From: Betaproteobacteria bacterium
GTDB lineage: Bacteria; Pseudomonadota; Gammaproteobacteria; Burkholderiales; SG8-41
Length of the DNA stretch: 41,230 bases
NCBI GenBank assembly: GCA_947476215.1
Contig: CANJQI010000027.1
Location: forward strand, 1-41,230
Direction: 5' to 3'
The notes under the pieces are model-generated. The model did no database searches. It was given only the letters and a program-made list of their open reading frames with translations, and was not told the DNA's origin. Of the stretch, positions 9,332 through 37,420 are shown piece after piece. A program made the translations under genes and the position numbers. Every line of letters starts with the position of its first letter. The stretch's first letter is position 1.

Positions 9332-9871
9332 ATGACCCAACAGATACGCCTGGTTGTGCCTGAGGCGCGGACCGTGCAGGTCGAGCACACGCGATCGCAG
9401 CGCGAACTCACGCTCGACAGCCTGCGCATCGGCATCCTCGATAACAACAAGGGCAATGCCGATCATCTGCTGCGTTTCATCGTCGACGGTTTGCAAGCGG
9501 CGTTGCCGGTGAAATCGGTGATCGCGTTGCGCAAGCCTGCGCCCAGCGCGGGGGCCACGATGGAAGTGCTCGATCAGCTTGCCGCGGACGCCGATTTCGT
9601 CGTCAGCGCGATGGCGGATTGAGGGGGGTGCACATCGTGGAGTGTCCACGATATGACCGAAATTCGTAAACGCGGGGTGTTGGCCGCCGTCATTTGTTCC
9701 AGTCCCTTCATGAATCTGGGCAAAGCCCAGGCGCGCACGTTCGGCGTCCCGGATCTGCGTCTGGTGGAAATTCCGCATCCATTCGGCGGCCTGGCGCTGG
9801 GGAGCGTGCAAGTGCGCGCCGCGGCAGTGATACCGCAGTTGGTGTCCCTCATCAAGGAGCATATCAAGTGA
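9332..9871 (+). CDS. UGSC-family selenoprotein A (stand-alone form, in-frame UGA at 9620-9622)
   Basis: Read through UGA, this frame gives 179 residues. The N-terminal half contains a Rossmann-like RIGILDNNKGNADHLL segment (about residues 31-46). Codon 97 is UGA in the motif Sec-Gly-Gly-Cys100, then TSWSVHD, Cys122 in AAVICSS, and EIPHPFGG near residue 148. A hairpin begins 11 nt after the UGA (9634-9652). The protein ends at TGA 9869-9871, overlapping the GTG of the partner gene. GAAGGA lies upstream of ATG 9332. The UGSC family is known from environmental selenoproteome surveys; its reaction is unknown. Sec97 and Cys100 could form a selenenylsulfide (inference). Conventional calling would stop at 9622. 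Confidence 0.88.
9634..9652 (+). promoter_or_regulatory. SECIS-like hairpin of UGSC A
   Basis: ATCGTGG / CCACGAT form a perfect 7-bp stem with loop AGTGT, starting 11 nt after UGA 9620-9622. The stem can extend outward by two pairs after one mismatch. The apical loop has a GU, as in known bacterial SECIS loops. It lies inside codons for S-W-S-V-H-D. Confidence 0.85.
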
Positions 9872-10989
9872 CGGCGATATCCGCGTTGCTCGACGCTGAC
9901 GGCGCCAGCGTTTACTCAGATGACGATTTCGATGCGGTGAATGCGCTGGTGCGTGAGCGTGGCTGGGGCGATGGATTGCCCGTGGTTCCGCCCAGCGAAC
10001 AGCGTGTCGCTGCCATGCTCGAATGGTGCGATCGCCCGTGGGATGAACCGTTCGCCACCATGGCGCCGCGCTATAGCGGTGTGACGCCCTTGCTGCTCGC
10101 GGCAAACGCGGTCATGGCGGGCTGCCGGCCGGAATATTTTCCGCTGGTCATGCTTGCGATCGAGGCCTTGTGCGAGAAACAGTTCAATCTGTACAGCATA
10201 CAGGCCACCACCCACCCGTGCGCACCGTTGCTGATATTCAACGGTCCGGTCGCGCGCGAGCTTCATATTAATGGCGGCAACAACGCCTTTGGTCAGGGCG
10301 TGCAGGCCAATGCCACCATCGGACGCGCGGTGCGTCTGGCGCTGGTGAACATTGGTGGCGCGGCGCCGGGCATTGCGGACATGGCCACGCATGGCTCGCC
10401 CGCCAAGTACACATACTGTGCGGCGGAAAACGAGGCCGCCAGTCCGTGGGAGCCATTGCATGTGGAGCGCGGCTTTCCGAGCGACGCGACAACGGTCACC
10501 GTGATAGGCGCGGAATGTCCGCACAACATTAACGATCACCAAAGTTTAACCGCCGAAGGCGTGATGATGACCATCGCGGGAACCATGGCAACGACCGGAG
10601 CCAACGATATTTATTATCCCGCGCAAAGACCATTGCTGGTGCTGGGGCCGGAACACGCCCAGACCATCGCCGACGGCGGTTATTCCAAAGCCGACGCCAA
10701 GCGCTTTTTGCAGCAACACGCGTGGCTTGCGCTGAACAGATTTTCGCCGGAGAACATCGGGCGGCGCTTCATGGTGACGTTCAGGGACCAGTATGCAAAC
10801 GCCGCTCCGGATGCGCCTGTCCATGCCGTCAAACACGCCGAAGACATAATCATCGTCGTCGCGGGTGGGGTCGGCAAACACTCGATCTACATGCCGACTT
10901 TCGGCGGGTCAACGACACCAGTGACTTGCGCGCTCAAGCGTCGTGACGGGTCATATGTGCAGACTATTGATGAGTGTCGCCGCGCATAG
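9868..10989 (+). CDS. UGSC-partner protein (free form of the UGSC-fusion C-terminal domain)
   Basis: 373 residues from GTG 9868, which overlaps the UGSC stop (GTGA). It is homologous over its length to the C-terminal domain of the fused UGSC genes in this window. Shared motifs in order: GWGDGLPVVPP (residues 32-42), NAVMAGCRPEYFP (80-92, Cys86), NGPV (125-128), NATIGRAVRL (148-157), PGIADMATHGSP, YCAAENE (Cys184, Glu187, Glu189), PWEPLHVERG (193-202), TVTVIGAE, GPEHAQTIADGGYSKADAKRFL and a C-terminal GGVGKHSIYMPTFGG. No signal peptide or membrane segment. I cannot name a characterised family. The obligate linkage suggests a complex with the selenoprotein; two conserved cysteines could be redox partners. 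Tail-to-tail with the next gene (10 nt). Confidence 0.85.
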   Translation: MTAISALLDADGASVYSDDDFDAVNALVRERGWGDGLPVVPPSEQRVAAMLEWCDRPWDEPFATMAPRYSGVTPLLLAANAVMAGCRPEYFPLVMLAIEALCEKQFNLYSIQATTHPCAPLLIFNGPVARELHINGGNNAFGQGVQANATIGRAVRLALVNIGGAAPGIADMATHGSPAKYTYCAAENEAASPWEPLHVERGFPSDATTVTVIGAECPHNINDHQSLTAEGVMMTIAGTMATTGANDIYYPAQRPLLVLGPEHAQTIADGGYSKADAKRFLQQHAWLALNRFSPENIGRRFMVTFRDQYANAAPDAPVHAVKHAEDIIIVVAGGVGKHSIYMPTFGGSTTPVTCALKRRDGSYVQTIDECRRA

Positions 10990-10999
10990 GCTTTCCGAT

Positions 11000-12739
11000 T
11001 CACGTATTGGCTTCTTTCAGCATGCGCTGCCAGTCCGCGGGCAGATTGATCTTCTTCGCAACCGGAAAACCGAGAAAGCCGTTGTGCGCGAACACGTATG
11101 CATTGTTGCGCAGTGGGTCGCCGCTCACCACGATCATGATGTCCTTGGGCTCCCAAACGATGGGCACCATGCGGTTCGGATCGTCGGATTCGCGGAACAG
11201 TTTGGGGATGAGGCTCTTCTGGACATCGTCGTCTATGCTCCACACGCCGCGTATCGTCCAGTCGCGCAGATAGCGGTCGTATTCCCATGCGTGGTATCGG
11301 GCATGGTCGAATAGAAATTTCTGCACATCAAGTTTCGACCATCCCGCCTTGGCAATATTTTCCGCAACGATGGGCGTGATCACGACCAGCGGGCGCAATG
11401 AGCCGTTGCCGTGACTGGTCGTGAAATGTATCTGCCATGTGTGATACTTGAGCACCGAATCGGCAAGGTAGGGCAGCATCTCTTCCGGCGAACTGCCCGA
11501 GATCGAGGAAAACGATCCGCCGCCGGTATAGCGCGCGATGGTGACGGTATTATCGCCCGCCGCAAATCCCATCGCCTGGCTGTTGGTTTCCCAGCCTATG
11601 CTTTTGAGGACATCTTCATTTTCCGCCAGCACCACTCTGAACGTATTGCCGAACGTCGCTTTGTCCGTCTTGTGCGGCAGAAAACCCGCAACATTGCGCA
11701 GGTAGAGGCGCCAGAAGCGGCCGATCGAGGTATTCGCCATGAAGCCATCGCGCAATGCACCCTGCGTGTAGTTGAATTCCAGATCCTTGATGATGGGACC
11801 GTTCAGTATGATCAGAGTCTCGCCGCCCGGCGTATTGCCGCTGTGTTCGACGCCGTAAATCGGATCGCACATCGCTTCGATGAGCGCAATCAGTACCGGC
11901 ATGTACTCGGGACGGCATCCGGCCATCACACCGTTGACAGCCACGCTCCAGATCGTCGCGGAACGGCTGTCGGGCAATATCGTGCCCAGTGATTCGTCGG
12001 GGTCTCTGTCGGTATAGCGCAGAAATGCATCGATCTCGTTGCGTGTCGGCGGAACGACAGGCAATCCATCGCTGAGTTCGTTCTTGTAGAAATAGCGGTT
12101 GACGTCCCTGGCACTGCCTTTGAATACGATGTCACGTGCGCCGGGTTCGCTCTTGTCCATGCCGGTCGCGGGCGGGCGCGTCAGGGTTTCGATGACGCGT
12201 TCCAGCGTCACCTCAAGTATGTTGTGACGCAGTTCTTCCTTGTTTTGTACGCCGACGTGGCCGGGAACGACGGACAAGGGAATGTTGGGTAAACCGAGGC
12301 CGATGGATGTCGCCGCGGCCTGGCGCAGGAATCCTTCGCATACCAGCGACGTGGTCGGCACTCCGGCGTTTTCGCATACAGCACTGGCCCGCAACACGGC
12401 GGGCGTGCAGCTCCCTCAACACGCCATGCCGGAAATCACCGCGTCTACGCCCAGTTCCTTGAAGCGTTGGGGCAGCGCCGCGAGGACTTCCTTTTCGTTG
12501 CCGCAGTGCGAACTTCCAAACTCGCGCCAGCTCACGAAGCGGATGTCGGGGAAGCGCGCCTTGAGGCCTTCCTCCAGCAGCGCAAATACTTCATCGCCAC
12601 GAAACACCATGTCCCAGAGCTGTGCCACCGTTTTTCCATTCAGTGTTTCAAGGCGCGGCGCTAGCGGCCTTACCTTGGTCTGGCGCGGTGAACGCGGCCA
12701 GTAAACTTCATGAAAATCATATTCCCTTTGTTCAGCCAT
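11000..12739 (-). CDS. divergent UGSC-fusion selenoprotein B (in-frame UGA at 12416-12418, minus strand)
   Basis: Read through UGA, 579 residues. ATG 12739 is preferred over 12763 because AAAGGA stands 7 nt upstream. The UGSC domain (about 1-200) has the motif Cys107-Sec108-Gly-Ser-Cys111 followed by TPAVLRASAV, not the TSWSVHD of the others, and a later Cys134 in SLVCEG. The C-terminal domain keeps DGLPVVPP, NGVMAGCRPEYMP, NGPI and NTSIGRFWRL but has diverged after that: VLAENED replaces the Cys-containing AENE motif and PWEPLHVERG is lost. A different 6-bp hairpin starts 11 nt after the UGA. Divergent from Bug 5 across 253 nt. Likely a separate subfamily with another substrate (inference). 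Confidence 0.82.
12387..12404 (-). promoter_or_regulatory. SECIS-like hairpin of UGSC B
   Basis: On the minus strand GCCCGC / GCGGGC form a perfect 6-bp stem with loop CGTGTT, again starting 11 nt after the UGA (12416-12418). The sequence is unrelated to the other five hairpins and encodes different residues, but spacing and a GU in the loop are the same. It is therefore independent support for recoding. Confidence 0.72.
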
Positions 12740-12798
12740 GATTATTTCCTTTGTTATCCGCAAAGCCGGTCAAGTTTTGCCAGCACGCGCGTTTTCGA

Positions 12799-13985: not shown

Positions 13986-14012
13986 CTGCAGTTAAATAAA
14001 ACCGCGGAGTAA

Positions 14013-15155
14013 ATGAATATGGATCTCGTGAAAATCGCCGCAGTGGCGGATATCTGTACTGGTCATCAGCCGCCCGAAAGTGCGTTTACCAACGTGCTTG
14101 CAACGCTGCGCGGTGCTGATTTGCGCTTCGCCCAGGTGGAACGCCTGTATGCGCGGCGCGGCAGCTATCAGGAGCAGAATGGCATGTCCGGGCGACCGGC
14201 ACGCCAGGATCCGAGCTTTGCGGATGTGTTCAAAACCGTGCCATTCGACATACTGTCGCTGGCGTCCAATCATACCGGCGACTGGGGACCTGAAGCGGTT
14301 GAGGATACCGTTGAAACATTTCGCCTGCTTGGTATTCCGACCGTGGGCGCGGGGTGCAATGTCGCAGAAGCGCGCAAGCCGGTCATACTTGAACGCAATG
14401 GCGTGCGCATTGCTTTTCTCGCTTACGTATCGACGGTGCTGCCGCAGTTCTGGGCCAACGAAAGTCGCGCCGGGGCCGCGCCCATGCGCGCGCATACGTA
14501 CTACGAGCCTTATGAATATCAGCCGGGTGCACCGGCGCGCGTGGTCACCGTGCCGCACGCCGCCGATCTCGAACATCTCGTCGCCGATGTCAAACAGGTC
14601 AGACAACACGCGGACGTCGTTCTCGTGTCCTTGCATTGGGGCGTTCATTATGTGCCGCGTCCGTGTGACTATCAGCCGGTCGTCGCGCATGCAGCGATTG
14701 ATGCCGGCGCCGACGTTATCCTTGGCCACCACGCGCACCAGCCGCAGGGCATCGAAATCTACAAGAATGGCGTCGTCTTCTACAGCATGGGCAATTTCGC
14801 GTTCGCGCCGCCGCGCAGGAAAGGCAGTCATTCGCTGGCCATGCCGATGGGCGAATATGTGCAGAAGGACGTTTATTCGCTGGAGCCCGATCCCGGCTTT
14901 GTTTTCGATTACCGCCGTCATTTCAAGGAGGGCGGTATTGTGTTTCTCGATGTGGATCGCAAGGGAGTCGCGCGCGTGAACTACATGCCCACGCTGATGA
15001 ATGACGATGGGCAGCCGGATATCGTGCGCCCCGGTCAGCCCCAGTTTGAGAAGCAGCTCGAATATCTCAACTGGGCGGGCCGCTTTATCAAGGGCGGCGT
15101 GACCGCGATGAAGGCGGCGGGCGACAGGTATGAGGTCTATGTGCGCGGCGCGTGA
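14013..15155 (+). CDS. CapA-family (PGA_cap) metallophosphatase-like protein
   Basis: 380 residues of the CapA / poly-gamma-glutamate biosynthesis superfamily, which has a metallophosphoesterase-like fold. Typical blocks are RFAQVERLY (the position of the usual NLE block), LSLASNHTGDWG (metal-binding Asn-His), VVLVSLHWGVHY (His), GADVILGHHAHQPQGIEIYKNG and VVFYSMGNFAF. No signal peptide or transmembrane anchor, so it is not a capsule-export CapA; it more likely hydrolyses a small molecule. It sits between two Bug genes in a plus-strand set, 27 nt after Bug 5. Soluble CapA-like proteins of catabolic clusters are mostly uncharacterised, so the specific role is open. Confidence 0.85.
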   Translation: MNMDLVKIAAVADICTGHQPPESAFTNVLATLRGADLRFAQVERLYARRGSYQEQNGMSGRPARQDPSFADVFKTVPFDILSLASNHTGDWGPEAVEDTVETFRLLGIPTVGAGCNVAEARKPVILERNGVRIAFLAYVSTVLPQFWANESRAGAAPMRAHTYYEPYEYQPGAPARVVTVPHAADLEHLVADVKQVRQHADVVLVSLHWGVHYVPRPCDYQPVVAHAAIDAGADVILGHHAHQPQGIEIYKNGVVFYSMGNFAFAPPRRKGSHSLAMPMGEYVQKDVYSLEPDPGFVFDYRRHFKEGGIVFLDVDRKGVARVNYMPTLMNDDGQPDIVRPGQPQFEKQLEYLNWAGRFIKGGVTAMKAAGDRYEVYVRGA

Positions 15156-18843: not shown

Positions 18844-20460
18844 CTAACCCGGCAATATGATTTCGCGTGTCGTCGAACGCGTATGCGCCGACACCGGAAA
18901 ATATACCGAGTGGGTTCCTGGCCCGCCGGCAACTATGATGCTGATGTCGTCGGATTTCAGCGAGATCGGCAACATCGTATCCGGCGTCAGTTCACCCAGT
19001 TCCGCACGACGCGATTCCTGAACGCGTCCGAAATCCTTGGCGGACAGCCGTTTTGCCGCGAGTTTGGAATTGTCCCAAAGGCCGCGTTTGACATCTGCCT
19101 TGCTCAAGCCTTCGCGCTTGAGGAGGTGCGCATGCTCCGGCGATAACATGATCCACGGCCGGCCGCCATTCACGTAGTCGCTGCCGACCGGGAATGCCAT
19201 GGTGTCGCCGATGACGCGCAGCAGGTCTTTGGAGTCCTTGGCATGCGTGTTCATGTTCCACGTGCCCAGCGCGCCGACGACCGTGGCGGTACTGGCGCCG
19301 GGCGCAAAGCCGCGCTCGACATGCAGCGGCTCCCACGGATTGGCGGCTTCGTTCTCGGCGCAACAGAATGTGTACTTGCCGGGCTGTCCCTGCGTGGCTT
19401 TGTCCATGATGCCCGGCAGGCCGCCACCGATGTTCTGCAGTATCAGGCGCAATGCACGCCCCAGTGTGGCGTTGGCCCAGTTGCCCTGACCCAGACAGTT
19501 GTTGCCATAGTTGACGCCCAGCTTTTCGATGATGGGCCCGTTGATGACCAGCCACACGGCAACGGGATTGGTCGTCGCCTGTATGCTTTGCAGGTGGAAT
19601 TCGCGCGCGCCGACAGCTTCGGCGGCCGCAATCAGGACTGGCAGATATTCCGGACGGCAACCCGCCGCGACGGCATTGATCGCAATGAGTTCGACGGTCG
19701 CTGCGCGATACGCCGGCGCTATGGTTGCGACCACTTCATCGGGGGCACGGTTGGTGTGCTTGAGCATGCGTGCGACGCGTTCCCTGGTCGGTGCGATGAT
19801 GGGCAGGCCGTCGCCCCATTTCCGTTCTATGAAGAATTGATTCAGTTCGTCGGCGTCGCCGGGAACCTCAACCAGTTCTGCGCGCGGCGCAGGTTTGTCG
19901 CTTGCGCGTGCCGCTCTGCTTTTGGAGCCCGGGTCCTGCAGTTGCCGTGCGATGTCTTCAACGCACTGGCCGGCAATCGTGCGCAACTCATCGCGGTTAC
20001 GGATGCCGAATGGATGCGGCACCACCGCGATCGGCAGATCGGGATAGCCCAGCGCCTTGGCCTGCGCGCGCCCGAGTCCGAGAAAATCGGATGAGCATAC
20101 GGTTATGGATGCCAGGCCGTGCTTTGCTGCCGTTACACTGTCGTGGATACTCCACGACGTGCAGGATCCTCAATCGCCGGACCCGGTAATGACGGCATCG
20201 CACTGGTCGCTGAGTTCCTGCATGACCGCGTCTGGCACCGGCACGCCCGCGCCGCGTTTGCGGCGCTTGACGACTCTTTCAACACCGTGCTTGCTTACCA
20301 GCAATTCCGCGAGGTCGTCGACGAGATAGTTGAAATTGGGTTTGGCGTTATCGATGAAGCCGACGACTTTGCCGGCCAGTCCATCCAGCGACTGCCGCAA
20401 TTGCTGCGGTCCGCTGTACTCCGGCGCCACCGGGTCGTATACCTGCCTGCCTGTTGTCAT
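18844..20460 (-). CDS. UGSC-fusion selenoprotein C (in-frame UGA at 20170-20172, minus strand)
   Basis: Read through UGA, 538 residues. N-terminal UGSC domain: GKVVGFIDNAKPNFNYLVDDL (no more than this block), CDAVITGSGD, then Sec97-Gly-Ser-Cys100, TSWSIHD, Cys122 in ITVCSS and VVPHPFG. C-terminal partner domain from about residue 215: KWGDGLPIIAP, NAVAAGCRPEYLP, NGPI, NATLGRALRL, PGIMDKATQGQPG, FCCAENE, PWEPLHVERG, SPEHAHLLKREGLSKADVK and GGPGTHSVYFPV. GGAG lies 8 nt before ATG 20460. A hairpin starts 11 nt after the UGA. It is last in a six-gene minus-strand operon, after a D-2-hydroxyacid dehydrogenase. Reaction unknown. Normal annotation would give a 96-residue and a 393-residue piece. Confidence 0.88.
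20140..20158 (-). promoter_or_regulatory. SECIS-like hairpin of UGSC C
   Basis: On the minus strand GTCGTGG / CCACGAC form a perfect 7-bp stem with loop AGTAT, 11 nt after UGA 20170-20172. The outer pair is G-C where UGSC A and D have A-T. The single loop change (G to A) turns Val into Ile in the protein. Confidence 0.85.
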
Positions 20461-20599: not shown

Positions 20600-21580
20600 T
20601 TAATACCAGCTCTTCTTGTCCACGATATTGCGCAGCGGTGTGCCGTCGATCAGGTGGCGTGCATTCTCCAGTATGACTTCGTAGCGGCGCTCGTTCAGAT
20701 GCGGACCTATGCCGGACGTATGCGGTGTGATGAATACGCCGGGCATGCTCCATAGCGGATGGTCTTTGGGCAGCGGCTCGGTTTCGAATACGTCCAATCC
20801 GGCGCCGGCAAGTCTGCCGTCGCGCAGAGCGGCGGTCAGCGCGTCGAGGTGCGTCGTTTTGCCGCGGCCGATGTTGATGAAGTAGGCGCCTTTTTTCATC
20901 CGTGCGAAGCGGGCTGCGTCAAACAGTCCGCCGGTCGCCGGAGTATGAGGAATGGTGAGCACAACAAAGTCAGCCTGCGGCAACAGGTCGTCGAGCTCTT
21001 CCGGGCGTCCGAGGAGGGCAACGCCGGGCGGTGCGCTTACGCGCCGCGCGTCTATGCCGATGACCCGCATGCCAAACGCACTGGCGATGCGTGCGGTCTC
21101 GGCGCCTACGCCTCCCACGCCGACGATGAGCATGGTGGCCTCGGGCAGCGCGAGTACTCCGGTCTCGTCGGCCGACCCGGTTTTTTCCTTGGGCGGTATC
21201 CATTCATGGCGGATTTGCTGATGAAAATAACGATGCATGCCGCGCGCGAAATTGAGCACGTACATCATGATGTGCGCGGAGATGTGGTCATTGTAGATTT
21301 CACGGAAATTCGTGACCACGACCGGGTGCGAAATCAGCGCCGGGTAGTAGTAGCCCGCGGCGGGCGCTGCGTGTGGCGCCTGCAGCCAGCGCAGTTTTTG
21401 TGCCTGCGCGAGCACCTCAGGCGCAACGGTGCCAAACGCGGCATCGGCGTCGACTATGGCGGTCTTGGCTTCCTCGTTGGTTTCGGTCAGCACCACTGAC
21501 ATGTCGCGACAGTCGGTCATCAGTCGTGCGGCCCAGTCGCGCGTGGCCTTGTTTTGCGGGGGGATGAAGACAAACTTCAT
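20600..21580 (-). CDS. D-2-hydroxyacid dehydrogenase (NAD-dependent)
   Basis: 326 residues with a complete D-2-hydroxyacid dehydrogenase layout. The NAD motif GVGGVG is at residues 154-159, Asp177 at the end of the next strand suggests NAD rather than NADP, and the catalytic residues are Arg239 (NIGRG), Glu268 (ETEPLPKDHPLW) and His287 (TPHTSG). The N-terminal substrate domain carries WLQAPHAAPAAG and FREIYNDHISAHIM. It interconverts a 2-oxoacid and the D-2-hydroxyacid in the cytoplasm. AGGAG precedes ATG 21580. It is cotranscribed with Bug 8 (59 nt upstream) and UGSC C (139 nt downstream). The substrate is not readable; a carboxylated hydroxyacid would suit the locus. Confidence 0.9.
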   Translation of the reverse strand: MKFVFIPPQNKATRDWAARLMTDCRDMSVVLTETNEEAKTAIVDADAAFGTVAPEVLAQAQKLRWLQAPHAAPAAGYYYPALISHPVVVTNFREIYNDHISAHIMMYVLNFARGMHRYFHQQIRHEWIPPKEKTGSADETGVLALPEATMLIVGVGGVGAETARIASAFGMRVIGIDARRVSAPPGVALLGRPEELDDLLPQADFVVLTIPHTPATGGLFDAARFARMKKGAYFINIGRGKTTHLDALTAALRDGRLAGAGLDVFETEPLPKDHPLWSMPGVFITPHTSGIGPHLNERRYEVILENARHLIDGTPLRNIVDKKSWY

Positions 21581-21639: not shown

Positions 21640-22599
21640 CTAGTCGGCGCGTATGCCGGTATCCTTGATGACTTTGCCGCTGCGCGTCATGTCGGCCTTG
21701 ATGATCGCAATGAATTCCTCGGGCGTGCTGCTTGCGGCTTCCATTCCCACGCCCAGAAACTTTTCCTTCACGTCGCCGGCGGCCAGCGCGCCCTTGAGTT
21801 CAATGCTGAGCCGGTTGACGATGGCGGCAGGCGTTTTCGGCGGGGCGAACATTCCATAAATCGACGTCATTTCGTAGCCGGGCAGGCCTGATGCCGCCAA
21901 TGTCGGCAGATCCGGAACCAGGGCAGAGCGCTCCGCGCTCGTGACGCCCAGAGCCCGCAGCCGTCCTGATTTGATATGCGCGGTCACGGATCCGGGTGTC
22001 GCAAACGACAGTTGCACTTCATTGCCGAGCAAAGCATTAAGACCCGGCCCGGTGCCTTTGTAGCCTATGCGCACGATGTTGATACCGGCCATGGACTTGA
22101 GCAGTTCCGCGGCGAGGTGTTGGGCGGACCCGGTTGAACTGGAGCCATAGTTCAGAACACCGGGCTGGGCCTTGGCGAGTGCGATCAGATCATTCAAGGT
22201 CTTGAGCGGCAACAACGGATGCACGACCAATATGTTGGGGGACAGAGCGCTCAGTCCGATCGGCGTGAAATCCCGCCGTGCATCGAAGGGCGGCAAATCC
22301 CGCAGGTACGGGGATATCCACAGGCTGCTGCTGTAAAACAACAGCGAGTAACCGTCAGGTGTGGCTTTGCTGACAATTTCCGAACCGATGGAACCACGAT
22401 TTTCAACGATGACCGGTTGACCCATAGCTCCCGACAGTTTTTGCGCCACGATGCGCGCGGCCAAGTCATTGCCGCCACCCACGGCGGCGGCGACGATGCG
22501 GATATGTTTTGATGGAAAAGTCTGCGCCGATAACACGCCTGCATAGGCGACAACCACCATGAAGACGAAATATCGGATGTGTGCAGTTGAGAGCCTCAT
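21640..22599 (-). CDS. Bug/TctC-family periplasmic solute-binding protein 8
   Basis: 319 residues, starting 4 nt after the MmgE/PrpD stop, so translation is probably coupled. Signal peptide to about Ala25 (LSAQ). TFPSKHIRIVAAAVGGGNDLAARIVAQ, TPDGYSLLF, FDARRDFTPIG, VHPLLPLKTLNDLIALA, SAQHLAAELLKSMAGI, GLPGYEMTS and SGKVIKDTGIR identify it. The ligand loop is the shortest type (ENRGSIGSEI). The linkage to the D-2-hydroxyacid dehydrogenase and PrpD-like genes suggests a hydroxy-carboxylate ligand. Confidence 0.9.
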   Translation of the reverse strand: MRLSTAHIRYFVFMVVVAYAGVLSAQTFPSKHIRIVAAAVGGGNDLAARIVAQKLSGAMGQPVIVENRGSIGSEIVSKATPDGYSLLFYSSSLWISPYLRDLPPFDARRDFTPIGLSALSPNILVVHPLLPLKTLNDLIALAKAQPGVLNYGSSSTGSAQHLAAELLKSMAGINIVRIGYKGTGPGLNALLGNEVQLSFATPGSVTAHIKSGRLRALGVTSAERSALVPDLPTLAASGLPGYEMTSIYGMFAPPKTPAAIVNRLSIELKGALAAGDVKEKFLGVGMEAASSTPEEFIAIIKADMTRSGKVIKDTGIRAD

Positions 22600-22603: not shown

Positions 22604-24061
22604 TCATCCGGGTGTGGCGAGATTCATGATGTCCCTGATATTTTTGATTTTTTCCAGGGACTCCAGGGCTGCGAGCAGCTCGTCGGTCCGTTTTGGGTTT
22701 TCATGTATCAGTTTCGCGTTGGCGCGGAATTTCGACACCACATCTTCACGCGTGCACGGTCGGCTGGGAAAGCCCAGCAGTTCCGGTGCCGAGCGTACCA
22801 GCGACCGGCCATCCCTGAGTTTTACGGTGACTTCGCCACGTTGTTCCCCGAACCACGATGCCTCGTCGGCGGTGTAAGTGACGCGGCTTGCCAGTTCGAG
22901 CACGGCGGGCTCGGTCACCTTATCGGCGGTGAAACTCAGCGGCCCCAGTTCGCCGTCCGCGAGCAGGCGTGCCAGCAGATAGGGCAGGCTGAAGCGCGCG
23001 TTGTACGGCGTCGGATGCAGTTTGGTTTCCTTGGGTTCGAAGTGAAACTCGATGCGCTGCGCGGGCGCTCGGCAGTCGATTTGCAGCACGTCCTGCGGAC
23101 GCAGTTTGTATTCGATTACCAGTGATTTGAGAGCTTCCATGAAGTGGTGCGGGCCATGTCCCGCCGGGTAAAACTTCAAAACGTTCTTGAGCGTAGTCCA
23201 CTCGGTGCCCAGGCCACTCGTCAAACGCGTGGCATCATGCAGATCCTTGCCGATAACGGCCAACAGTCCGCGGTCTCCTTCATAGATCAGTCTGGGGCCG
23301 CGTAGACCATCGTGTGCCCACGAAGCAGCAATGATGCCCGAATGCGCAGCCCAGGCTGCATGAACATGCGAGTCGGCCCCTTCGCGGTGTGATTGTCCGA
23401 GGAACAGACCGAGCCCGCCGACCAGCCCCTGTGCCGAGGTGAGTTGTTGGGCATTCAATCCAAACAGCCGGCCGGCGATCAGCGCCGATGAATACAGTCC
23501 GGGCACGTAGGCCCGCACCAGCATGCCGCCCTCATGGTGCATGCGGTGGTGCGCGGCCAGTTCTTCCGCTCCCCACGTTGCACGCGCCGCGCGTACGCCA
23601 TAGCGGTCCACCATCAGCGATGCACCGACGCGCGGTGCAACTTCATAGCCGATGACCACGGCGGTGATCAGGTCCTTGCCCGTGCAATTGGCGGCCTCGC
23701 CGGCGGCAAGGGCGGTGGCGACGACGTGACGGCTCATGTGGTTGCCGCCGCCGCCGTAGTCAGTGTCGTCGTAGTCGAGCGCGGCGATGCCGATGCCGTT
23801 GGCGATCGCAGCATTGGCCGCAGCTATGCGTCCCGCGTGGCCTATGACGGTGGCTTCGGGCGGTCCCGCCAGTTTCCGGAATACGCTACTGCCGTTCCTT
23901 GCCCACTCCATGGTGCTGCCGGCGAGGGCGTTGCCGATGGAGTCCAGTATGTGGGTGCGCGCCTTGGCGGCGACTGCGGCCGGGATATCCTCGTAGCGCA
24001 GATTGGCAACGAAGTTCGCGAGGGTTTCCGAACAGCTTTGTTCACTTGATTCAATGGGCAT
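22604..24061 (-). CDS. MmgE/PrpD family protein 1
   Basis: 485 residues, the normal length of the 2-methylcitrate dehydratase (PrpD) / MmgE superfamily, whose members dehydrate or isomerise citrate-like acids (cis-aconitate decarboxylase and iminodisuccinate epimerase also belong). Seen blocks: FVANLRYEDIPAAV near the N-terminus, ARTHILDSIGNALAGS, ANAAIANGIGIAALDYDDT with the conserved Asp-Asp, VVIGYEVAPRVG, and YPAGHGPHHFMEALKSLV in the C-terminal domain. AAGGAA lies upstream. It sits 16 nt after UGSC D and 4 nt before Bug 8, clearly in one operon. The reaction is not decided by sequence. Confidence 0.88.
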   Translation of the reverse strand: MPIESSEQSCSETLANFVANLRYEDIPAAVAAKARTHILDSIGNALAGSTMEWARNGSSVFRKLAGPPEATVIGHAGRIAAANAAIANGIGIAALDYDDTDYGGGGNHMSRHVVATALAAGEAANCTGKDLITAVVIGYEVAPRVGASLMVDRYGVRAARATWGAEELAAHHRMHHEGGMLVRAYVPGLYSSALIAGRLFGLNAQQLTSAQGLVGGLGLFLGQSHREGADSHVHAAWAAHSGIIAASWAHDGLRGPRLIYEGDRGLLAVIGKDLHDATRLTSGLGTEWTTLKNVLKFYPAGHGPHHFMEALKSLVIEYKLRPQDVLQIDCRAPAQRIEFHFEPKETKLHPTPYNARFSLPYLLARLLADGELGPLSFTADKVTEPAVLELASRVTYTADEASWFGEQRGEVTVKLRDGRSLVRSAPELLGFPSRPCTREDVVSKFRANAKLIHENPKRTDELLAALESLEKIKNIRDIMNLATPG

Positions 24062-24077: not shown

Positions 24078-25682
24078 CTATGGGAGTATTACGCGGGTTA
24101 CCGAGCGTGTGCTGCCGAGGCTGGGCACATAAGTGGAATGCGTGCCGGGTCCGCCCGCCACCAGGATGCCGATATTGTCCGGCGTGGTGGCGATGGGCAA
24201 CAGCGTGTCCTGCGTAAACGTGCCGAGCTCGGGGCCGCGCACGCTTTGTATGCGCGCGAAGTCGATAGGCGGCAGCAGACGAACCGACATCTTGGATTGT
24301 TCCCACAGCCGGGATTTGACCTGCGCTTTGGTGAGTCCCGCGGCGTGCAGGATATGCGCATGTTCGGGGCTCAGTACGATCCACGGATTACCGCCGTTCA
24401 GATAATCGTTGCTCGGCGGGCGCGGCAGCGTGGCCGCGATGACATTCAGGATCTCGTCCGCATTCTTGGTATGCGTGTTCATGTTGAGTGTGCCTTCGGC
24501 GCCGACCACGGTCACCGTGCTCTGGTCCGCGCGGTAACCTTTTTCGACGTGCAGCGGCTCCCACGGAGTTTCCGTTTCATTTTCGGCACAGCAGAAGGTG
24601 TACTTGCCGGGCTGTCCATGCGTGGCGCGATCGAGTTCGCCCGGCACAGCCCGGCCGATGTTCAGCAGTATCAGATGCAGCGCGCGTCCGAGCGTGGCAT
24701 TGGCCCAATTGGTCTGGCCCAGGCAGTTGAGGTTGCCGTTCATTCCCAGGTCCTGCGCAATCGGACCATTGACGATGAGCCATACCGTCGCTGGATTGGT
24801 CGTGGTCTGTATGGTTTGCACGTTAAATTGCGGCGGCGTGACCGCTTCCACGGCCGCGATCAGTACCGGCATGCAGGCAGGATCGCAGCCGGCCATGACG
24901 GCATTGATGGCGATGCGCTGCACCGTTGCCGCACCGAAGCCCGGCGGAAGTCTGGCCACGATTTCGTCAGGGTGTCGAGTGGTGGCTTCAAGCATGCGCT
25001 GCACGCGCTTTTGCGTGGGCGCCACGACCGGCAGACCATCGGTCCAGCCCTGTGCCCGAAACAGCGCATTGACGTCATCGGCATCCGCACCGACATCGAC
25101 GAGTGCCGCACATTCAGTTTGCGCAGGTGTGCCGGCAGCGACGGCGTCGGTGGATTTGCATGCGAGAGACGCAATATCGGCCACCAGCGATACAGCCAGC
25201 GTGCGCACGCCATCGCGCGTCAGCGTTCCGAAGGGATGCGGCATGACCGCGATCGGCAAATCGGCATAGCCGAGCCCGCGCGCCTGCGCACGTCCCATGC
25301 CCAGGAATGAGGTGGAGCAAACCTGTACTGCCGTTACACCGCGTTTCGCGGCGTTTACGCTATCGTGGACACTCCACGATGTGCAGCCCCCTCAATCCCC
25401 CGAGCCTGTAATGACCAGGTCGCAGTGCGTCGTCACCTCGCCCATGATTTCCTCGGGCGCGGCTATGGATGGCGCCCGTTTCCTGAATTTCATCGTATCT
25501 TTGACGCCATAGCGGCTTTTCAATACGGTCGCAAGTTCATCGACCAGATGATTGAAATTGGGTTTGGTGTTATCGATGAACCCCACGACTTTGCCTGCCA
25601 GCGTATCGAGCGTGGTTCCTTGTAGCTGTCCCTCGCTGCGATAGGGTGCGCTGGGGTCGAATACGGATGTGTTGGTCGTCAT
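24078..25682 (-). CDS. UGSC-fusion selenoprotein D (in-frame UGA at 25392-25394, minus strand)
   Basis: Read through UGA, 534 residues from ATG 25682; the frame is open further upstream to 25826, but this start makes Sec97 as in its paralogues. UGSC domain: KVVGFIDNTKPNFNHLVDE, DLVITGSGD, Sec97-Gly-Gly-Cys100, TSWSVHD, Cys122 in AVQVCST, MPHPFG. Partner domain: WTDGLPVVAP, NAVMAGCDPACMP, NGPI, NATLGRALHL, PGELDRATHGQPG, FCCAENE, PWEPLHVEKG, TVTVVGAEGTLNMN and GGPGTHSTYVP. Very close to UGSC E, with which it is arranged back-to-back. The hairpin starts 11 nt after the UGA. Second in a minus-strand operon, 52 nt after Bug 9. Confidence 0.88.
25362..25380 (-). promoter_or_regulatory. SECIS-like hairpin of UGSC D
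   Basis: On the minus strand ATCGTGG / CCACGAT form a perfect 7-bp stem with loop AGTGT, 11 nt after UGA 25392-25394. The outer pair is A-T, encoded by the third bases of ACA (Thr) and GAT (Asp). Confidence 0.85.
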
Positions 25683-26900: not shown

Positions 26901-28511
26901 ATGAGTGTCGCAATGTCCGTGTTCGATCCCACCGCGCCTGAGTCCTCGGCGCCGCTACAGACGCGTCGTGTGCTTGACGGCCTCAAAGGCAAGGTGGTGG
27001 GATTCATAGACAACACCAAGCCCAACTTCCATTATCTGGTTGAAGATCTGTCGCGGATGATGCTGGATCGATATGGCGTCAAATCAGTCCTTAAGCGCAG
27101 CAAAGGCAAGGTTTCCATACCCGCGCCCGAGGAGTTGATCAGCGACCTTGCGGTGGAGTGCGATCTCGTCATTACCGGCTCCGGCGACTGAGGTGCATGC
27201 ACGTCGTGGAGTGTCCACGACAGCGTAGAAGTGGCGAAACGCGGCCTCGCGGCCGTTGAAGTATGTTCAACCGCGTTTGCGAGCATGGGGCAGAGCCAGG
27301 CGAAGGCACTGGGCCATCCCAGTTTGCCGATAGTGATCATTCCGCATCCGTTTGGCAGTCAGAGCCGCGCAAGCGTGCGGCAGATTGCCGAGCAATGCAT
27401 GTTGGATATTGCGCGCGTGGTGTGCGAAGCGGGACCTGCACCTGCGCAAAGCACCCAAGCCGGTCCGCGTGCTGCGATGATTGAAGTTGGCGACGATCTG
27501 GACACCGTCAATCAATTATTTCGCGAACGCCGCTGGTCCGATGGATTGCCCATCGTGCCACCGACCGCCGAGCGCGTAGCGCGCATGTTGCGCGGTACGG
27601 CGCGGTCACGCGATGAAGTCGTGGCGATTGTGGCGCCGGGATTTGGCGCGGCCAGCGTGGAGTTGATCGCGGTGAATGCGGTGCTTGCGGGGTGCGATCC
27701 GGAATACATGCCGGTATTGATCGCGGCGGTTGAGGCCATGACATCACCCAAGTTCAACCTTCAGGGCATACAGGCCAGCACCAACCCCGCTGGCGTGTGG
27801 ATGATAGTCAATGGCCCGCTCGCCAAGAGGCTGGGAATGAATTCCGGAATCAACGCCCTGGGGCACGGCAACTGGGCGAACTCCACCATGGGACGGGCGT
27901 TGCGCCTGATACTGCAGAACATTGGCCGTGCCTTACCTGGCGAACTGGACCGGTCGACTTTGGGGCAGCCCGGCAAACATTTGTTTTGCTGCGCCGAAAA
28001 CGAGGAACAAAGTCCCTGGGAACCGTTGCATGTCGAGCGCGGTTATAGGGCGGATCAGAGTACGGTGACCGTGGTGGGCGCGGAAGGCACGCTGAACATG
28101 AATACGCACTCCAAGGACGCGGCGGAAATGATACGGGTGATGGCCGAGACCATACGCCGGCCCACGGGCAACGACTACTGCAAGGGTGGCGACCCATGGA
28201 TGGTATTGTCGCCGGAGCATGCGGCGATACTCAAAGCCGGCGGACTGACCAAGGCAGAGGTAAAACGCATGTTGTGGGAGGCGTCGCGATTGCCCGCGAA
28301 TCGCATGGCGGTTATCGACATGAAGCGCACCATGAACCGGCGCCAAGCTGAACTCGGCGAGATACGCGTGGACACGTTGTTGCCTATATGCGTGGCGCCG
28401 GAAGGCCTCGGCATTATCGTATGCGGCGGTCCCGGTACCCACTCGGCGCATGTGTCGAGCTTTGGAAACACGCGCTCGGTTACGAGCGAAATTGACTGCA
28501 GCAGACCATGA
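26901..28511 (+). CDS. UGSC-fusion selenoprotein E (in-frame UGA at 27189-27191)
   Basis: Read through UGA, 536 residues. UGSC domain: KGKVVGFIDNTKPNFHYL, DLVITGSGD, then Sec97-Gly-Ala-Cys100, TSWSVHD, Cys122 in AVEVCST, IIPHPFG at about 147-152. A linker rich in Ala, Gln and Pro (about 178-190) leads to the partner domain: RWSDGLPIVPP (about 211-221), NAVLAGCDPEYMP, NGPL, NSTMGRALRL, PGELDRSTLGQPG, FCCAENE, PWEPLHVERG, TVTVVGAEGTLNMN, SPEHAAILKAGGLTKAEVK and GGPGTHSAHV. GAGGAG is 6 nt before ATG, and a promoter lies upstream. The stop overlaps the Bug 10 start (ATGA). A hairpin starts 11 nt after the UGA. First gene of its operon. Confidence 0.9.
27203..27221 (+). promoter_or_regulatory. SECIS-like hairpin of UGSC E
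   Basis: GTCGTGG / CCACGAC form a perfect 7-bp stem with loop AGTGT, 11 nt after UGA 27189-27191. The outer pair is G-C, from ACG (Thr) and GAC (Asp). Confidence 0.86.
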
Positions 28512-33063: not shown

Positions 33064-33093
33064 CGCTATTCGCGCTTTACAGGAACGAATGGC

Positions 33094-34699: not shown

Positions 34700-34898
34700 T
34701 GGTTCTCCAATATTGACGGGCCAATCGGTGCACGGTAATCAGGCTGATTTATGTGCACGAAAGATAAACCTGCGATGTTGCGCTGGCTTGCCCTAGCTGT
34801 TCGATTCATGCAATTATACAAATCTTTGCGTGCGGTCGCGGATTTGTGCGCGACTGTCGGAGAATTTCCTGAAACAAATAATCTGACTGGAGGAATGG

Positions 34899-36125
34899 GT
34901 GGATAGTGCAAAACAGGGGCCGTTGGCAGGGATGCTCGTCATCGATTTTTCACGAGTGATCGCGGGTCCGTTCGCCAGCCAGTTTCTTGGTGATCTGGGG
35001 GCGGACGTCATCAAGGTGGAGGAGCCGGGCACAGGAGACCCGAGCCGCAAGAATCCGCCGTTTGCGGGCGGCGAAAGCCACTATTTCATGGCCTTCAATC
35101 GCAACAAGAAGAGCGTCGCGCTCGATCTGAAAAAACCCGCGGGCAAGCAGGCCGCGCTCGATCTGATCAACCGTGCCGATATCGTGGTCGAAAACTTTCG
35201 TCCGGCGGTGATGAAGAAACTGGGCCTGGACTACGACACCGTGAAGATCACCAATCCGCGCCTCGTCTATTGTTCGATCTCGGGCTTTGGCCGTGAAGGG
35301 CCGTTGCGTGACGTGCCGGCTTACAACGAAGTGGTGCAGGCCATATCCGGCATCATGAGCATGAACGGCGAGGAGAACGGCCCGCCGATGAAGCTGGGCG
35401 TGCCTATCGGTGATCTGGGCGGCGCCTTATTCGCGGTGATCGGCGTGCTCGCGGCAATCACCGAGCGCACGCGAACGGGCAAGGGTCAATGGATAGACAT
35501 TGCACTCTACGACACCATGATCAGTCTGCTGGGTTATTTCTCAAATCTTTATTTTGTGAGCGGCGCGAGCCCGAAGCGCATAGGCTCGGCGCACCATTCG
35601 ATAGGGCCGCTGGGCGTGTTCGCCACCAAGGATGACTATCTGGCGCTGAGCATATTCACCGATAAATTCTGGGGCAACTTCTGCAATGCGGTGGGATTGC
35701 CGGAATTGATTGCCGATCCGCGCTTTGTCGATGCCGCGGGACGGGTGGGCAACAAGGACGTGCTCGAAAAAATCCTGCGCGAGTTGTTTGCGCAGCGCAC
35801 GGTCGCGGAATGGGATGTTCTGTTGACCGCGGCGGACGTGCCGCATGCACCGGTGAGGAGTGTCGGTGAGGCGCTGGAAGCGGCGCACACCCGCGAACGC
35901 AAGATGGTCGTTGAAGTCGATCATCCGACCGCGGGACGCATACGCAATACGGGTCGCCCGATCAAGTTTTCAGAACATGACAGTGCCGCCGAAATGCGCG
36001 CCGCGCCGCTGCTGGGCGCGGATACCGTAAGCGTGCTTCAGCAGTTTCTCAAATACAGCGAAAAACAGGTGGCCGAGATGCTGGCACAGGGCGCCGTGGC
36101 GCAGTGGAAGGCGAAGGAGAAGTAA
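34899..36125 (+). CDS. CaiB/BaiF CoA-transferase 3
   Basis: 408 residues from a GTG with GGAGG a few bases upstream (34889-34893). GPLAGMLVIDFSRVIAGPFAS, GADVIKVEEPGTGDPSR, KKSVALDLK, ENFRPAVM, LVYCSISGFGREGPL and the nucleophile Asp172 in VPIGDLGGALFAV give a complete active enzyme, with a C-terminal EWDVLLTAADVPHAPV block. It is first in the plus-strand operon leading to enoyl-CoA hydratase, UGSC F, its partner and two PrpD-like proteins. The 199-nt divergent gap upstream holds no promoter that I could define. Likely activates the imported acid to its CoA ester. Confidence 0.9.
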   Translation: MDSAKQGPLAGMLVIDFSRVIAGPFASQFLGDLGADVIKVEEPGTGDPSRKNPPFAGGESHYFMAFNRNKKSVALDLKKPAGKQAALDLINRADIVVENFRPAVMKKLGLDYDTVKITNPRLVYCSISGFGREGPLRDVPAYNEVVQAISGIMSMNGEENGPPMKLGVPIGDLGGALFAVIGVLAAITERTRTGKGQWIDIALYDTMISLLGYFSNLYFVSGASPKRIGSAHHSIGPLGVFATKDDYLALSIFTDKFWGNFCNAVGLPELIADPRFVDAAGRVGNKDVLEKILRELFAQRTVAEWDVLLTAADVPHAPVRSVGEALEAAHTRERKMVVEVDHPTAGRIRNTGRPIKFSEHDSAAEMRAAPLLGADTVSVLQQFLKYSEKQVAEMLAQGAVAQWKAKEK

Positions 36126-36878
36126 TTGGATACAGTCATATCAGATACCAAGGACGGCGTCGCAACCGTCACCCTGCACCGGCCGGAACAGCGCAATGCG
36201 CTAAACCTGCAGATGGCCATCGATCTGCATGCAGCGATCAAGGAAGCAGAAACAGACGCCAGAGTGCGCATCGTGCTCATACGCGGTACCGGGACCAGCT
36301 TTTGCGCCGGTGCAGACCTGAAGGAACGCGTCGGTGTGACCGAGGCGTGGTTGCGTAACCGCAGGCAGACGGCATTTGCGGCATACAACGCGATTCAGTG
36401 GTGTATGAAACCGTGCGTGGCGGTAGCCCATGGGCCGGTGATAGGCGCGGGCTGCGAAGTCGCGACGGCGTGCGACTTCATCATCGCATCGACGCGCGCC
36501 ACGTTCCGCTATCCGGAAGCCGCCGTCGGGTCCGTGGGTGCCAGCCAGCGTCTGCCGCGTATCGTCGGCAGGGCGATGGCGAAAGAACTGATTTTTACCG
36601 GACGCACCATAGATGCCGCGGAGGCCTTGCGCATAGGTCTCGTCAACCACGTGGTGGAGCCCGATCAGCTTGAGGCCAAGGTGGCCGAGACCGTGGGCAT
36701 GATATTGAAAGCTTATCCACTGTCGGTGCAGCTTGCCAAGCGCTGCGTCGACGTAGGCATGGAGTCGGATCTGCGCACCGGCATGGATTTCGAAATGATG
36801 GCCATAGACCGCTGCCTGGCGGACGAAGAGTGGAAGAAAGGCGTGCAGGCGTTTTCCGCGCAACGTAAAAAGGATTGA
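36126..36878 (+). CDS. enoyl-CoA hydratase/isomerase (crotonase family)
   Basis: 250 residues from TTG 36126, directly after the CoA-transferase stop, with AAGGAG at 36115-36120. Oxyanion-hole segments are SFCAGADLKE and AHGPVIGAGCE. PEAAVGSVGASQRLP carries the first catalytic Glu position and KELIFTGRTIDA the second, so hydratase chemistry is plausible; the usual GAGG is GSVGAS. HRPEQRNALN at the N-terminus is typical. With a CoA-transferase before it and an HMGL-like lyase nearby, it could act like methylglutaconyl-CoA hydratase on a branched or dicarboxylic CoA ester. The stop overlaps the leader of UGSC F by two bases before its GTG. Confidence 0.9.
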   Translation: MDTVISDTKDGVATVTLHRPEQRNALNLQMAIDLHAAIKEAETDARVRIVLIRGTGTSFCAGADLKERVGVTEAWLRNRRQTAFAAYNAIQWCMKPCVAVAHGPVIGAGCEVATACDFIIASTRATFRYPEAAVGSVGASQRLPRIVGRAMAKELIFTGRTIDAAEALRIGLVNHVVEPDQLEAKVAETVGMILKAYPLSVQLAKRCVDVGMESDLRTGMDFEMMAIDRCLADEEWKKGVQAFSAQRKKD

Positions 36879-36880
36879 GC

Positions 36881-37420
36881 GTGTACCGAAAAATTACGTT
36901 TGTGGTGCCGGAGGCGCCGGCACAGGCCGCAGCGCCGCTTGCGGCACAGCGCGCGCTCGGCAAGCACGGCATACGGCTGGGCATACTGGACAACCACAAG
37001 GGCAATGCCGATCATCTGTTGGCGATGATCGTGGAGGGCCTGCAAGGGGCGCTGCCGATTGCCTCGGTCGTGTCGCTGCGCAAACCGACCGCAGTCCTGG
37101 CCGCGCCTGCCGACATGCTTGATCAACTCGCGCAGGAGGCGGACTGCGTAGTCAGCGCAATGGCGGATTGAGGGTCGTGCACGTCGTGGAGTGTCCACGA
37201 CATGGCGACGCTCAGAAAACGCGGCATCCTGACGGCGGTGATCTGTTCAGCGCCGTTTGAGCGGCTGGGACGTACTCAGGCCACCGTACTCGGGGTTCCC
37301 GAATTGCCGCTGTTGATGATTCCGCATCCACTGGGTGGTCTCTCGTATGAAAAGGTGCGCGAGCGCGCCGATCATGCAATACCAAAGATCGTTGATTTAA
37401 TTAAGGAAAATATGAAATGA
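36881..37420 (+). CDS. UGSC-family selenoprotein F (stand-alone form, in-frame UGA at 37169-37171)
   Basis: Read through UGA, 179 residues. GTG 36881 is chosen over TTG 36875: AAGGA lies 7 nt before GTG, and this start makes the UGA codon 97, as in four paralogues. N-terminal half: ITFVVPEAP, RLGILDNHKGNADHLL, VSAMAD, then Sec97-Gly-Ser-Cys100, the canonical motif, TSWSVHD, Cys122 in AVICSA and MIPHPLGG. Close to UGSC A (for example GILDNxKGNADHLL and RKRG are shared). A hairpin starts 11 nt after the UGA. The stop overlaps the partner start (ATGA). It lies in an operon with CoA-transferase, hydratase and MmgE/PrpD genes. Confidence 0.9.
37183..37201 (+). promoter_or_regulatory. SECIS-like hairpin of UGSC F
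   Basis: GTCGTGG / CCACGAC form a perfect 7-bp stem with loop AGTGT, 11 nt after UGA 37169-37171. The outer pair is G-C, from ACG (Thr) and GAC (Asp); two more pairs can form beyond one mismatch. Confidence 0.86.

Follow-up and report, generated by a model that had tools for sequence, protein, structure and literature searches.

Multiplied UGSC selenoprotein genes with an obligate partner domain in a betaproteobacterial genome

Introduction

In the stretch of 41,230 nucleotides analysed in this study (the window), which constitutes an entire contig (CANJQI010000027.1, here C27) of the draft genome of a Betaproteobacteria bacterium (GCA_947476215.1, here G000), six reading frames resembling UGSC selenoproteins are each interrupted by a UGA codon preceding a Gly-X-Cys motif. 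This organization raises the question of whether the UGA is translated as selenocysteine (Sec), how many such genes the organism harbours and what kind of reaction their products might catalyse.

UGSC proteins have been catalogued since the Global Ocean Sampling (GOS) survey of 2008, which counted 255 members with Sec and 21 with Cys, described a fusion with a second domain labelled UGSC/Unknown_1 and found the family to be common in non-marine aquatic metagenomes (PMC2398784). Another count lists 33 genes in 26 organisms (PMC5029168), and a review of 2026 places UGSC among families whose functions are largely uncharacterised (PMC13188914).

Here, we have directly computed the position and conservation of the UGA codon, the adjacent stem-loops resembling selenocysteine insertion sequences (SECIS), the complement of Sec machinery, the number of paralogues and the occurrence of an obligate partner domain. 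As best explanation, in which we place about as much confidence as doubt, we propose a two-part Sec-dependent reductase, whose copies would have been multiplied for different small carboxylates.

Results

Six genes of the window contain a single in-frame UGA

The UGSC genes of the window and their separate partner genes are:

9332–9871, plus strand: UGSC selenoprotein, split form, 179 amino acids; UGA codon at 9620–9622; PF24696, E = 2.7e-41
9868–10989, plus strand: separate partner of 9332–9871, 373 amino acids, GTG start overlapping the stop of the latter; no Pfam or NCBIfam match
11000–12739, minus strand: UGSC selenoprotein with fused partner domain, divergent subgroup on the tree, 579 amino acids; UGA codon at 12416–12418; PF24696, E = 8.4e-30; PrdB TIGR04483, E = 7e-4
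18844–20460, minus strand: UGSC selenoprotein with fused partner domain, 538 amino acids; UGA codon at 20170–20172; PF24696
24078–25682, minus strand: UGSC selenoprotein with fused partner domain, 534 amino acids; UGA codon at 25392–25394; PF24696
26901–28511, plus strand: UGSC selenoprotein with fused partner domain, 536 amino acids, used for the structure model; UGA codon at 27189–27191
36881–37420, plus strand: UGSC selenoprotein, split form, 179 amino acids; UGA codon at 37169–37171; NF041046, 136.4 bits
37417–38535, plus strand: separate partner of 36881–37420, 372 amino acids, ATG overlapping the UGSC stop codon; no Pfam or NCBIfam match

Each of the six UGSC frames contains exactly one internal stop, in all cases a TGA, which is followed by Gly-X-Cys and a frame that remains open up to its own stop, as had been noticed in a sequence-only reading of the window. 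In five frames the UGA occupies codon 97, and in the gene at 11000–12739 codon 108. A Cys is found at residue 122 in all six, which in the latter gene, where the UGA is located 11 codons later, is a mere coincidence of numbering. Two of the genes, each comprising 180 codons, encode a short, split form of the protein and the remaining four a long, fused form, whose second domain corresponds to the product of the open reading frame (ORF) that overlaps the stop of either split gene (9868–10989 and 37417–38535). These two partner genes were not part of the finding of the sequence-only reading, which as a whole is supported and has turned out to be too modest. The start codon of 36881–37420 is a GTG, with a TTG at 36875 as alternative.

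All six proteins match PF24696 (UGSC) with E-values between 8e-30 and 1e-46 and scores of 104.6–159.7 bits, compared to a cut-off of 25. They also match the equivalog model NF041046 (cut-off 125 bits), which is passed only by the product of 36881–37420, with four proteins scoring at 113–123 bits and one at 45. Judged by these profiles, the individual genes are members of an already named and catalogued family, with which all six share the Sec-Gly-x-Cys motif, and the earlier description of the reaction as unknown still applies to this family.

The genome contains fifty intact UGSC genes

The entire genome is a draft of 5.75 Mb in 326 contigs, with a listed completeness of 98.46% and contamination of 1.17%. 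It contains 58 entries matching PF24696 (termed rows; 71 of 71 candidates were scored), 54 of which carry an in-frame TGA. In 50 of these, which we refer to as intact, the UGA is the sole internal stop, with the partner fused in 33 cases and split in 17. Their motifs read UGSC (29), UGGC (12), UGAC (7) and UGTC (2). The four excluded TGA rows are C7:46801 (a broken gene, of which a second row lacks the TGA), C307 (an extra TAG), C45 (an extra TAA) and C37:36241 (either broken or truncated by the contig end), and the four rows without TGA are C7:47087, C158:2894 (a truncated UGSC part) and the Sec-less genes C76:16708 and C80:22300. Among the 50 intact genes, C104 runs off the end of its contig.

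Such a count might be an artefact of assembly, with several strains or species binned together, in line with the fragmentation into 326 contigs and with a warning about binning that a review voices for another record genome (PMC13188914). We consider this explanation very improbable in light of the low listed contamination, the residence of six copies on the single contig of the window and the 40 and 26 rows found in two named genomes of the same search. Moreover, the protein identity to the nearest paralogue, determined for each of the 58 rows, does not exceed 73% (median 62%), a range that on its own would be compatible with a mixture of distinct species, and DNA matches of more than 150 nucleotides between paralogues do not exceed 80.2%, save for the two rows of one broken gene. 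At this level of divergence, the paralogues are not strain copies.

Together with selD, a GrdB-like gene (UGTC) and two PrdB-like genes (UPNC), the genome holds at least 54 apparently intact selenoprotein genes, in a tally of UGSC, selD and GrdB/PrdB-like genes only, which is no general survey. This total is comparable to that of described giant selenoproteomes with at least 57 genes in Olavius algarvensis Delta 1, 63 in a metagenome-assembled genome (MAG) of the Methylomirabilota and at least 46 in Desulfosediminicola flagellatus (PMC13188914; PMC12013277). In the present genome, a single family provides 50 intact genes alongside a haem-copper oxidase, whereas the 57, 63 and 46 genes were compared as totals and not by family.

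Each UGSC gene is accompanied by a partner domain

A partner was identified by tblastn for all 50 intact genes. In the 33 long genes it is part of the same polypeptide, whereas in the 17 short ones it is encoded by the adjacent gene in the same orientation, located downstream in 11 and upstream in six cases, with spacings of 0–53 nucleotides or a short overlap. As the tblastn queries contained the ends of the fused genes themselves, the result was rechecked without self-matches: for each of the 33 fused ends a split partner was found as match (E ≤ 1.4e-42), and for each of the 50 partner sequences another partner (E ≤ 6e-72). The UGSC partner is obligate.

No Pfam or NCBIfam match was obtained in this region for either split partner in the window or for the long proteins, save for chance-level matches to DUF7739 and DUF5703, and profile searches of PDB sequences gave no convincing match. 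When folded alone without an alignment, the partner yielded a useless model (pLDDT 32.5). A Cys within a MAGC motif of the partner is kept in all 72 rows with a residue at this position in an alignment (A1) of 84 of the 130 prepared UGSC references and two partner proteins, and in at least 90% of a second alignment (A4), where L049 carries an Ala. The partner is also kept in the Sec-less genes C76:16708 and C80:22300 (L088 7056–8906 and L089 7268–8998), where Ala and Thr replace Sec and Cys. The UGSC/Unknown_1 fusion of the GOS survey resembles the organization found here, with Unknown_1 known here by its label only (PMC2398784).

The UGA codon is almost certainly decoded as selenocysteine

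The interrupting codon is TGA in all 78 readable related loci, which were fetched via patterns lying outside the codon (79 loci fetched, the 79th starting past the codon, with the best 80 of 413 relatives kept). Hence, none of these 78 close relatives shows a Cys form. Homologues with Cys at the UGA position do exist, as illustrated by one case of a CGLC motif at the place of UGSC in a fused homologue of genome G410 and by the 21 Cys members of the GOS survey (PMC2398784).

As a separate observation, three of four UGSC-type proteins from genomes G405 (L204, L205) and G410 (L203) appear by eye to carry signal-peptide-like N-termini and may be exported. The motifs of these possibly exported proteins are USTC, UGSC and CGLC.

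Stem-loops resembling bacterial SECIS elements (bSECIS) are located 3' of the UGA in all six genes of the window:

9634–9652, plus strand: ATCGTGGA-GTG-TCCACGAT, 11 nucleotides past the UGA
12387–12404, minus strand: GCCCGC-CGTGTT-GCGGGC, 11 nucleotides past the UGA
20140–20158, minus strand: GTCGTGGA-GTA-TCCACGAC, 3' of the UGA of 18844–20460
25362–25380, minus strand: ATCGTGGA-GTG-TCCACGAT, 3' of the UGA of 24078–25682
27203–27221, plus strand: GTCGTGGA-GTG-TCCACGAC, 3' of the UGA of 26901–28511
37183–37201, plus strand: GTCGTGGA-GTG-TCCACGAC, 3' of the UGA of 36881–37420

Upon resampling of synonymous codons, the stem is significant in each of the six genes (p ≤ 0.045). Across the genome, a stem scoring at least 12 and beginning 10–14 nucleotides past the UGA is found in 51 of the 54 TGA rows. 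The mean stem score is 18.3 compared to 5.1 under resampling, with p ≤ 0.05 in 46 of the 54. The stems are of two types, TCGTGG/CCACGA with GTG or GTA as apex and CCCGC/GCGGG with mostly CGTGTT. In registers that were picked on the same data as scored, 177 of 180 and 129 of 144 stem cells of the two subgroups are paired, compared to 20–57% and 33–50% if slid by 1–3 nucleotides. In subgroup I, the Ser preceding the Trp is encoded by TCG in 29 of 29 cases and the Ser following it by AGT in 26 of 26. A different arrangement is found in the split UGSC genes L070, L071 and L058 16646–17209, where the partner is located upstream and the usual stem is missing, possibly in favour of another SECIS shape.

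Rfam model RF00031 (SECIS_1) found no match in the genome and none in 14 controls, and is hence uninformative. In a broader Rfam search of the window and L047 (E ≤ 5), a tRNA-Sec was detected on L047, with the other seven matches below their gathering scores. The complete machinery for Sec incorporation is present in the same genome. On one strand of an 8-kb contig, selC (the tRNA-Sec; 74 bits, cut-off 47), a thioredoxin-reductase-like gene, selB (446 bits, cut-off 242) and selA (584 bits, cut-off 268) follow in a row, and selD (424 bits, cut-off 125), whose own frame contains an in-frame TGA, is encoded on another contig.

A genome-wide reassignment of UGA was rejected because the codon terminates 28 of the 50 intact UGSC genes. 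The same number might be taken to suggest that UGA acts as plain stop throughout, leaving only short products or pseudogenes, a possibility that is close to negligible in view of the conserved continuation, the SECIS-like stems and the complete set of sel genes. We thus regard decoding as Sec as almost certain, and gene callers that stop at UGA would truncate such genes.

UGSC genes are found throughout the family of the host

UGSC genes were detected in all 74 searched genomes of the GTDB family of the window, which we take to be SG8-41. Because at most 40 candidates were scored in each, the counts per genome are lower bounds. Outside the family, they were found in five of 368 genomes (from an even draw of 369 of the class including that of the window, with at most nine candidates scored in each). 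The lineage-specific expansion that had been proposed from the window holds, and with 54 UGA-bearing rows in this genome and a presence in every family genome searched it had been understated.

Twelve named genomes were also searched. Rows were found in the Betaproteobacteria bin RIFCSPLOWO2_12_FULL_62_13 (40), the Burkholderiales bin SJ103 (26), K_Offshore (7) and SG8_41 (6; L163), which belongs to the family of the window, its match coordinates being identical to those of family genome G050. Further rows come from two Tectomicrobia (8 and 4), Entotheonella (5), a Deltaproteobacterium (4) and a Nitrospinota bin (3), with a single row in each of the Chloroflexota, Acidobacteria and Proteobacteria SZAS-71 bins. 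The titles of several related records (including L094, L098, L099 and L116), which name for example Bordetella parapertussis or Chitinophaga pinensis, look doubtful, with the UGSC proteins of these MAG contigs grouping on the tree with betaproteobacterial ones.

On a phylogenetic tree of 130 rows, whose bootstrap has not settled and in which long branches are flagged, the 52 rows of the genome require 21 label changes, compared to a mean of 40.9 after shuffling, and well-supported branches force only four of them. The divergent subgroup is nearly devoid of outside rows because relatives were fetched with a sequence of the other subgroup. Judged by the 21 changes, many duplications, and with them the expansion, seem to be older than the species itself. 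Within the limits of this tree, recent duplication within the species was rejected as main source of the copies.

A likely remote kinship of UGSC to the Sec-bearing half of GrdB and PrdB

GrdB and PrdB are the B selenoproteins of glycine/sarcosine/betaine reductase and of D-proline reductase, in which they attack the substrate. One indication of a relationship to these reductases is provided by the divergent gene at 11000–12739, which as one of the six matches the PrdB model TIGR04483 (E = 7e-4). In a comparison by hhalign, a UGSC profile of 29 rows aligns over 104 columns, with Sec placed on Sec or Cys, to a second profile built from 12 GrdB- and PrdB-like proteins of the genome and its phylum (probability 89%, E = 2.2e-6). 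Against a single GrdB-like protein, the UGSC profile still reaches a probability of 74% (E = 2.9e-5), whereas the three controls, unrelated proteins from this genome that were used singly, remain at 0.1–1.6% (E = 0.03–0.5). UGSC thus shares with GrdB and PrdB (PF07355, TIGR01918, TIGR04483) a Sec-x-x-Cys motif at the same place and about 100 alignable columns, which cover only the Sec-bearing half of the latter. Based on these profile comparisons, we regard a remote kinship to this half as likely. Within the GrdB family, GrdB and GrdE paralogues sort by substrate, and a GrdB paralogue has been proposed to cleave the C–F bond of fluoroacetate (PMC10838667).

The genome itself encodes a GrdB-like protein that passes TIGR01918 (419 bits compared to a cut-off of 65) and PF07355. 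At L200 (G000:C148, 4790–7554), a Gly_reductase gene (PF09338) comes immediately after the GrdB-like selenoprotein gene (UGTC), which yields a pair resembling glycine, sarcosine or betaine reductase, encoded together with a haem-copper oxidase in one genome. PrdB-like selenoproteins with a UPNC motif are encoded at L177 (G000:C99) and L195 (G000:C52), with relatives in the phylum mostly carrying CPxC and two carrying UPVC at this position.

A different assignment would view UGSC proteins as general thiol or selenol oxidoreductases or peroxidases of the thioredoxin type, multiplied for redox defence. In favour of this view, UxxC is widespread as redox motif, a thioredoxin-reductase-like gene is part of the sel cluster and the GOS paper of 2008 considered a thioredoxin-like fold as likely (PMC2398784). 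In the predicted structure of the fused protein encoded at 26901–28511 (pLDDT 94.8, pTM 0.93), the UGSC half is organized in strand-helix units, with the Sec placed between a strand (89–95) and a helix (98–113). A Foldseek search with the full model gave weak and varied matches (best E = 2e-4, TM 0.17 by query), which were not used to establish kinship, and no thioredoxin is found among the 50 matches listed. The strand-helix order in the model and the absence of thioredoxins from this weak list lead us to doubt the proposed thioredoxin-like fold. Since also the profile kinship points to GrdB and PrdB, and since an obligate partner of about 370 residues and catabolic neighbours are unlike a general defence, we consider a role in redox defence distinctly unlikely.

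Genes of acid metabolism in the vicinity

Genes in the vicinity of UGSC within the window include:

34899–36125, plus strand: CoA-transferase family III, upstream in the same tight series; PF02515, E = 2.6e-133
36126–36878, plus strand: enoyl-CoA hydratase/isomerase, immediately preceding 36881–37420 (UGSC); PF00378, E = 8e-54
38599–39996, plus strand: MmgE/PrpD, after the partner gene 37417–38535; PF03972, E = 7e-64
at 40182: second MmgE/PrpD, running off the window; PF03972, E = 1.4e-60
22604–24061, minus strand: MmgE/PrpD, downstream of the UGSC gene 24078–25682; PF03972, E = 4e-48
21640–22599, minus strand: TctC/Bug-type receptor, flanked by the PrpD and dehydrogenase genes and belonging to a type with many members in the window; PF03401, E = 2.2e-64
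20600–21580, minus strand: D-2-hydroxyacid dehydrogenase, upstream of the UGSC gene 18844–20460 on the same strand; PF02826, E = 7e-53

On the plus strand, CoA-transferase III, enoyl-CoA hydratase, UGSC and partner are thus followed by two PrpD genes, and a series on the minus strand contains UGSC, PrpD, TctC, hydroxyacid dehydrogenase and a second UGSC. In 45 loci, where ORFs were defined by a simple longest-ORF caller and clustered by BLAST, with each cluster named after one scanned member and a few ORFs counted twice due to the overlap of L063 and L090, the recurring neighbours comprise TctC (173 ORFs, spread over 43 loci), CoA-transferase III (13), FAD_binding_2 (10), TauD-type (9) and PGA_cap (8). 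A gene of PGA_cap type (PF09587) is also found in the window at 14013–15155. A first look at the genome identified 995 candidates for TctC/Bug genes, and the 150 that were scored all exceed the cut-off. The genome further contains one haem-copper oxidase gene, which suggests that the host is probably able to respire oxygen.

The proximity of CoA-transferase, enoyl-CoA hydratase, PrpD and hydroxyacid dehydrogenase genes could also be reconciled with a non-redox enzyme, in which Sec would act as nucleophile of a lyase, isomerase or hydratase on hydroxy-acids or acyl-CoA esters, and the partner retained by the two paralogues without Sec and Cys would fit such a role. Conversely, a Cys at the position Sec+3 is kept in all 82 Sec-bearing rows of alignment A1, as in redox pairs, and the relatives GrdB and PrdB are reductases, which renders the non-redox reading unlikely. 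Improbable to a higher degree is an involvement of UGSC in the handling of metals or organometals, similar to the unusual selenoproteins of the SAO type, for which large selenoprotein operons have been described (PMC13188914), as a Pfam scan, which covered 27 proteins of the neighbourhood and did not extend to the genome, revealed none of the families for resistance to mercury, arsenic or other metals.

Discussion

In the proposal that we consider as best explanation, the 50 intact UGSC genes of the genome, including the six of the window, would encode a two-part Sec-dependent reductase. Its first part would be formed by the UGSC α/β domain, a putative remote homologue of the Sec-bearing half of GrdB and PrdB, in which a strand precedes and a helix follows the Sec (U97-G-x-C100), and its second by the partner domain of about 370 residues, either fused behind UGSC or encoded by the adjoining gene. 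A small carboxylate might be bound where UGSC and partner domain meet, with the selenolate attacking an activated carbon of this acid. The partner domain would provide the substrate or electron side, and a C–X bond (with X being N, O, S or halogen) would be cleaved reductively to release the reduced acid. Cys100 could then act as resolving thiol of the oxidised enzyme, and recharging might proceed by a thioredoxin-type system, for which the thioredoxin-reductase-like gene in the sel cluster would be a candidate. The number of copies would reflect the range of substrates, with each paralogue serving a different acid and accompanied by a CoA-transferase, a hydratase, PrpD or a hydroxyacid dehydrogenase of its own. 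What we infer here are the chemistry, the substrates and the roles of the partner and Cys100, and for reductive C–X chemistry with one copy per substrate we see at best an even chance.

Several observations weigh against this proposal. Two-sided changes, as expected for covariation of the stems, were found in 1 and 8 cells of the two subgroups, compared to 0–1 and 1–9 in slid versions. Since they are no commoner than in some of the latter, and since the registers were picked from the same data, the stems lend support by pairing and codon choice, not by covariation. The intact genes C104, C136 and C14:44693, which form one clade on the tree, lack a stem at the expected place, where two of the three fold a different hairpin, and in five more TGA rows the stem is often matched by resampling (p = 0.09–0.43). 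With respect to kinship, none of the six genes matches PF07355 up to an E-value of 1, the GrdB of the genome matches UGSC models weakly (E = 0.006 and 0.027, both below cut-off), and the PrdB-like sequences used for comparison themselves fall below the PrdB cut-off (with none of 398 genomes above). With respect to a partner of GrdE or PrdA type, as in the glycine and D-proline reductase complexes, the partner domain was not alignable with the one Gly_reductase protein of the genome compared and showed no kinship to GrdB either (hhalign probabilities of 0.1 and 0.3, in comparisons of single sequences), so that the GrdB analogy covers only one part of the system. The two Ala/Thr paralogues that keep the partner imply that some copies can do without the redox pair. 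Finally, co-localisation with TctC was dropped as functional signal, since these genes abound in the genome and their nearness says little.

The individual genes belong to a known family, and what seems to be new is the scale of the copy number, the obligate unnamed partner and the link to GrdB and PrdB. The passages on UGSC in the published accounts, which amount to less than a full survey of the literature, contained no genome with fifty copies, no obligate partner and no relationship to GrdB (PMC2398784; PMC5029168; PMC13188914).

Bacteria rich in selenoproteins are mostly anaerobes, and aerobes rarely retain such proteins according to the 2026 review (PMC13188914). The multiplication of one Sec family to fifty copies in a lineage with a haem-copper oxidase runs contrary to this rule. 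By their link to GrdB and PrdB and their obligate partner, what was a hypothetical selenoprotein becomes a testable enzyme. As a tentative view, in which our doubts somewhat prevail, these genes might constitute an undescribed modular Sec-dependent catabolic system of one betaproteobacterial family, in which probable oxygen respirers keep up to 50 substrate-specific two-part selenoreductases, each composed of a UGSC half related to GrdB and PrdB and of a new partner domain. This would be the largest expansion of a single selenoprotein family yet seen. If true, such a system would do for its hosts on the basis of selenium what a set of oxygenases or dehalogenases does elsewhere.

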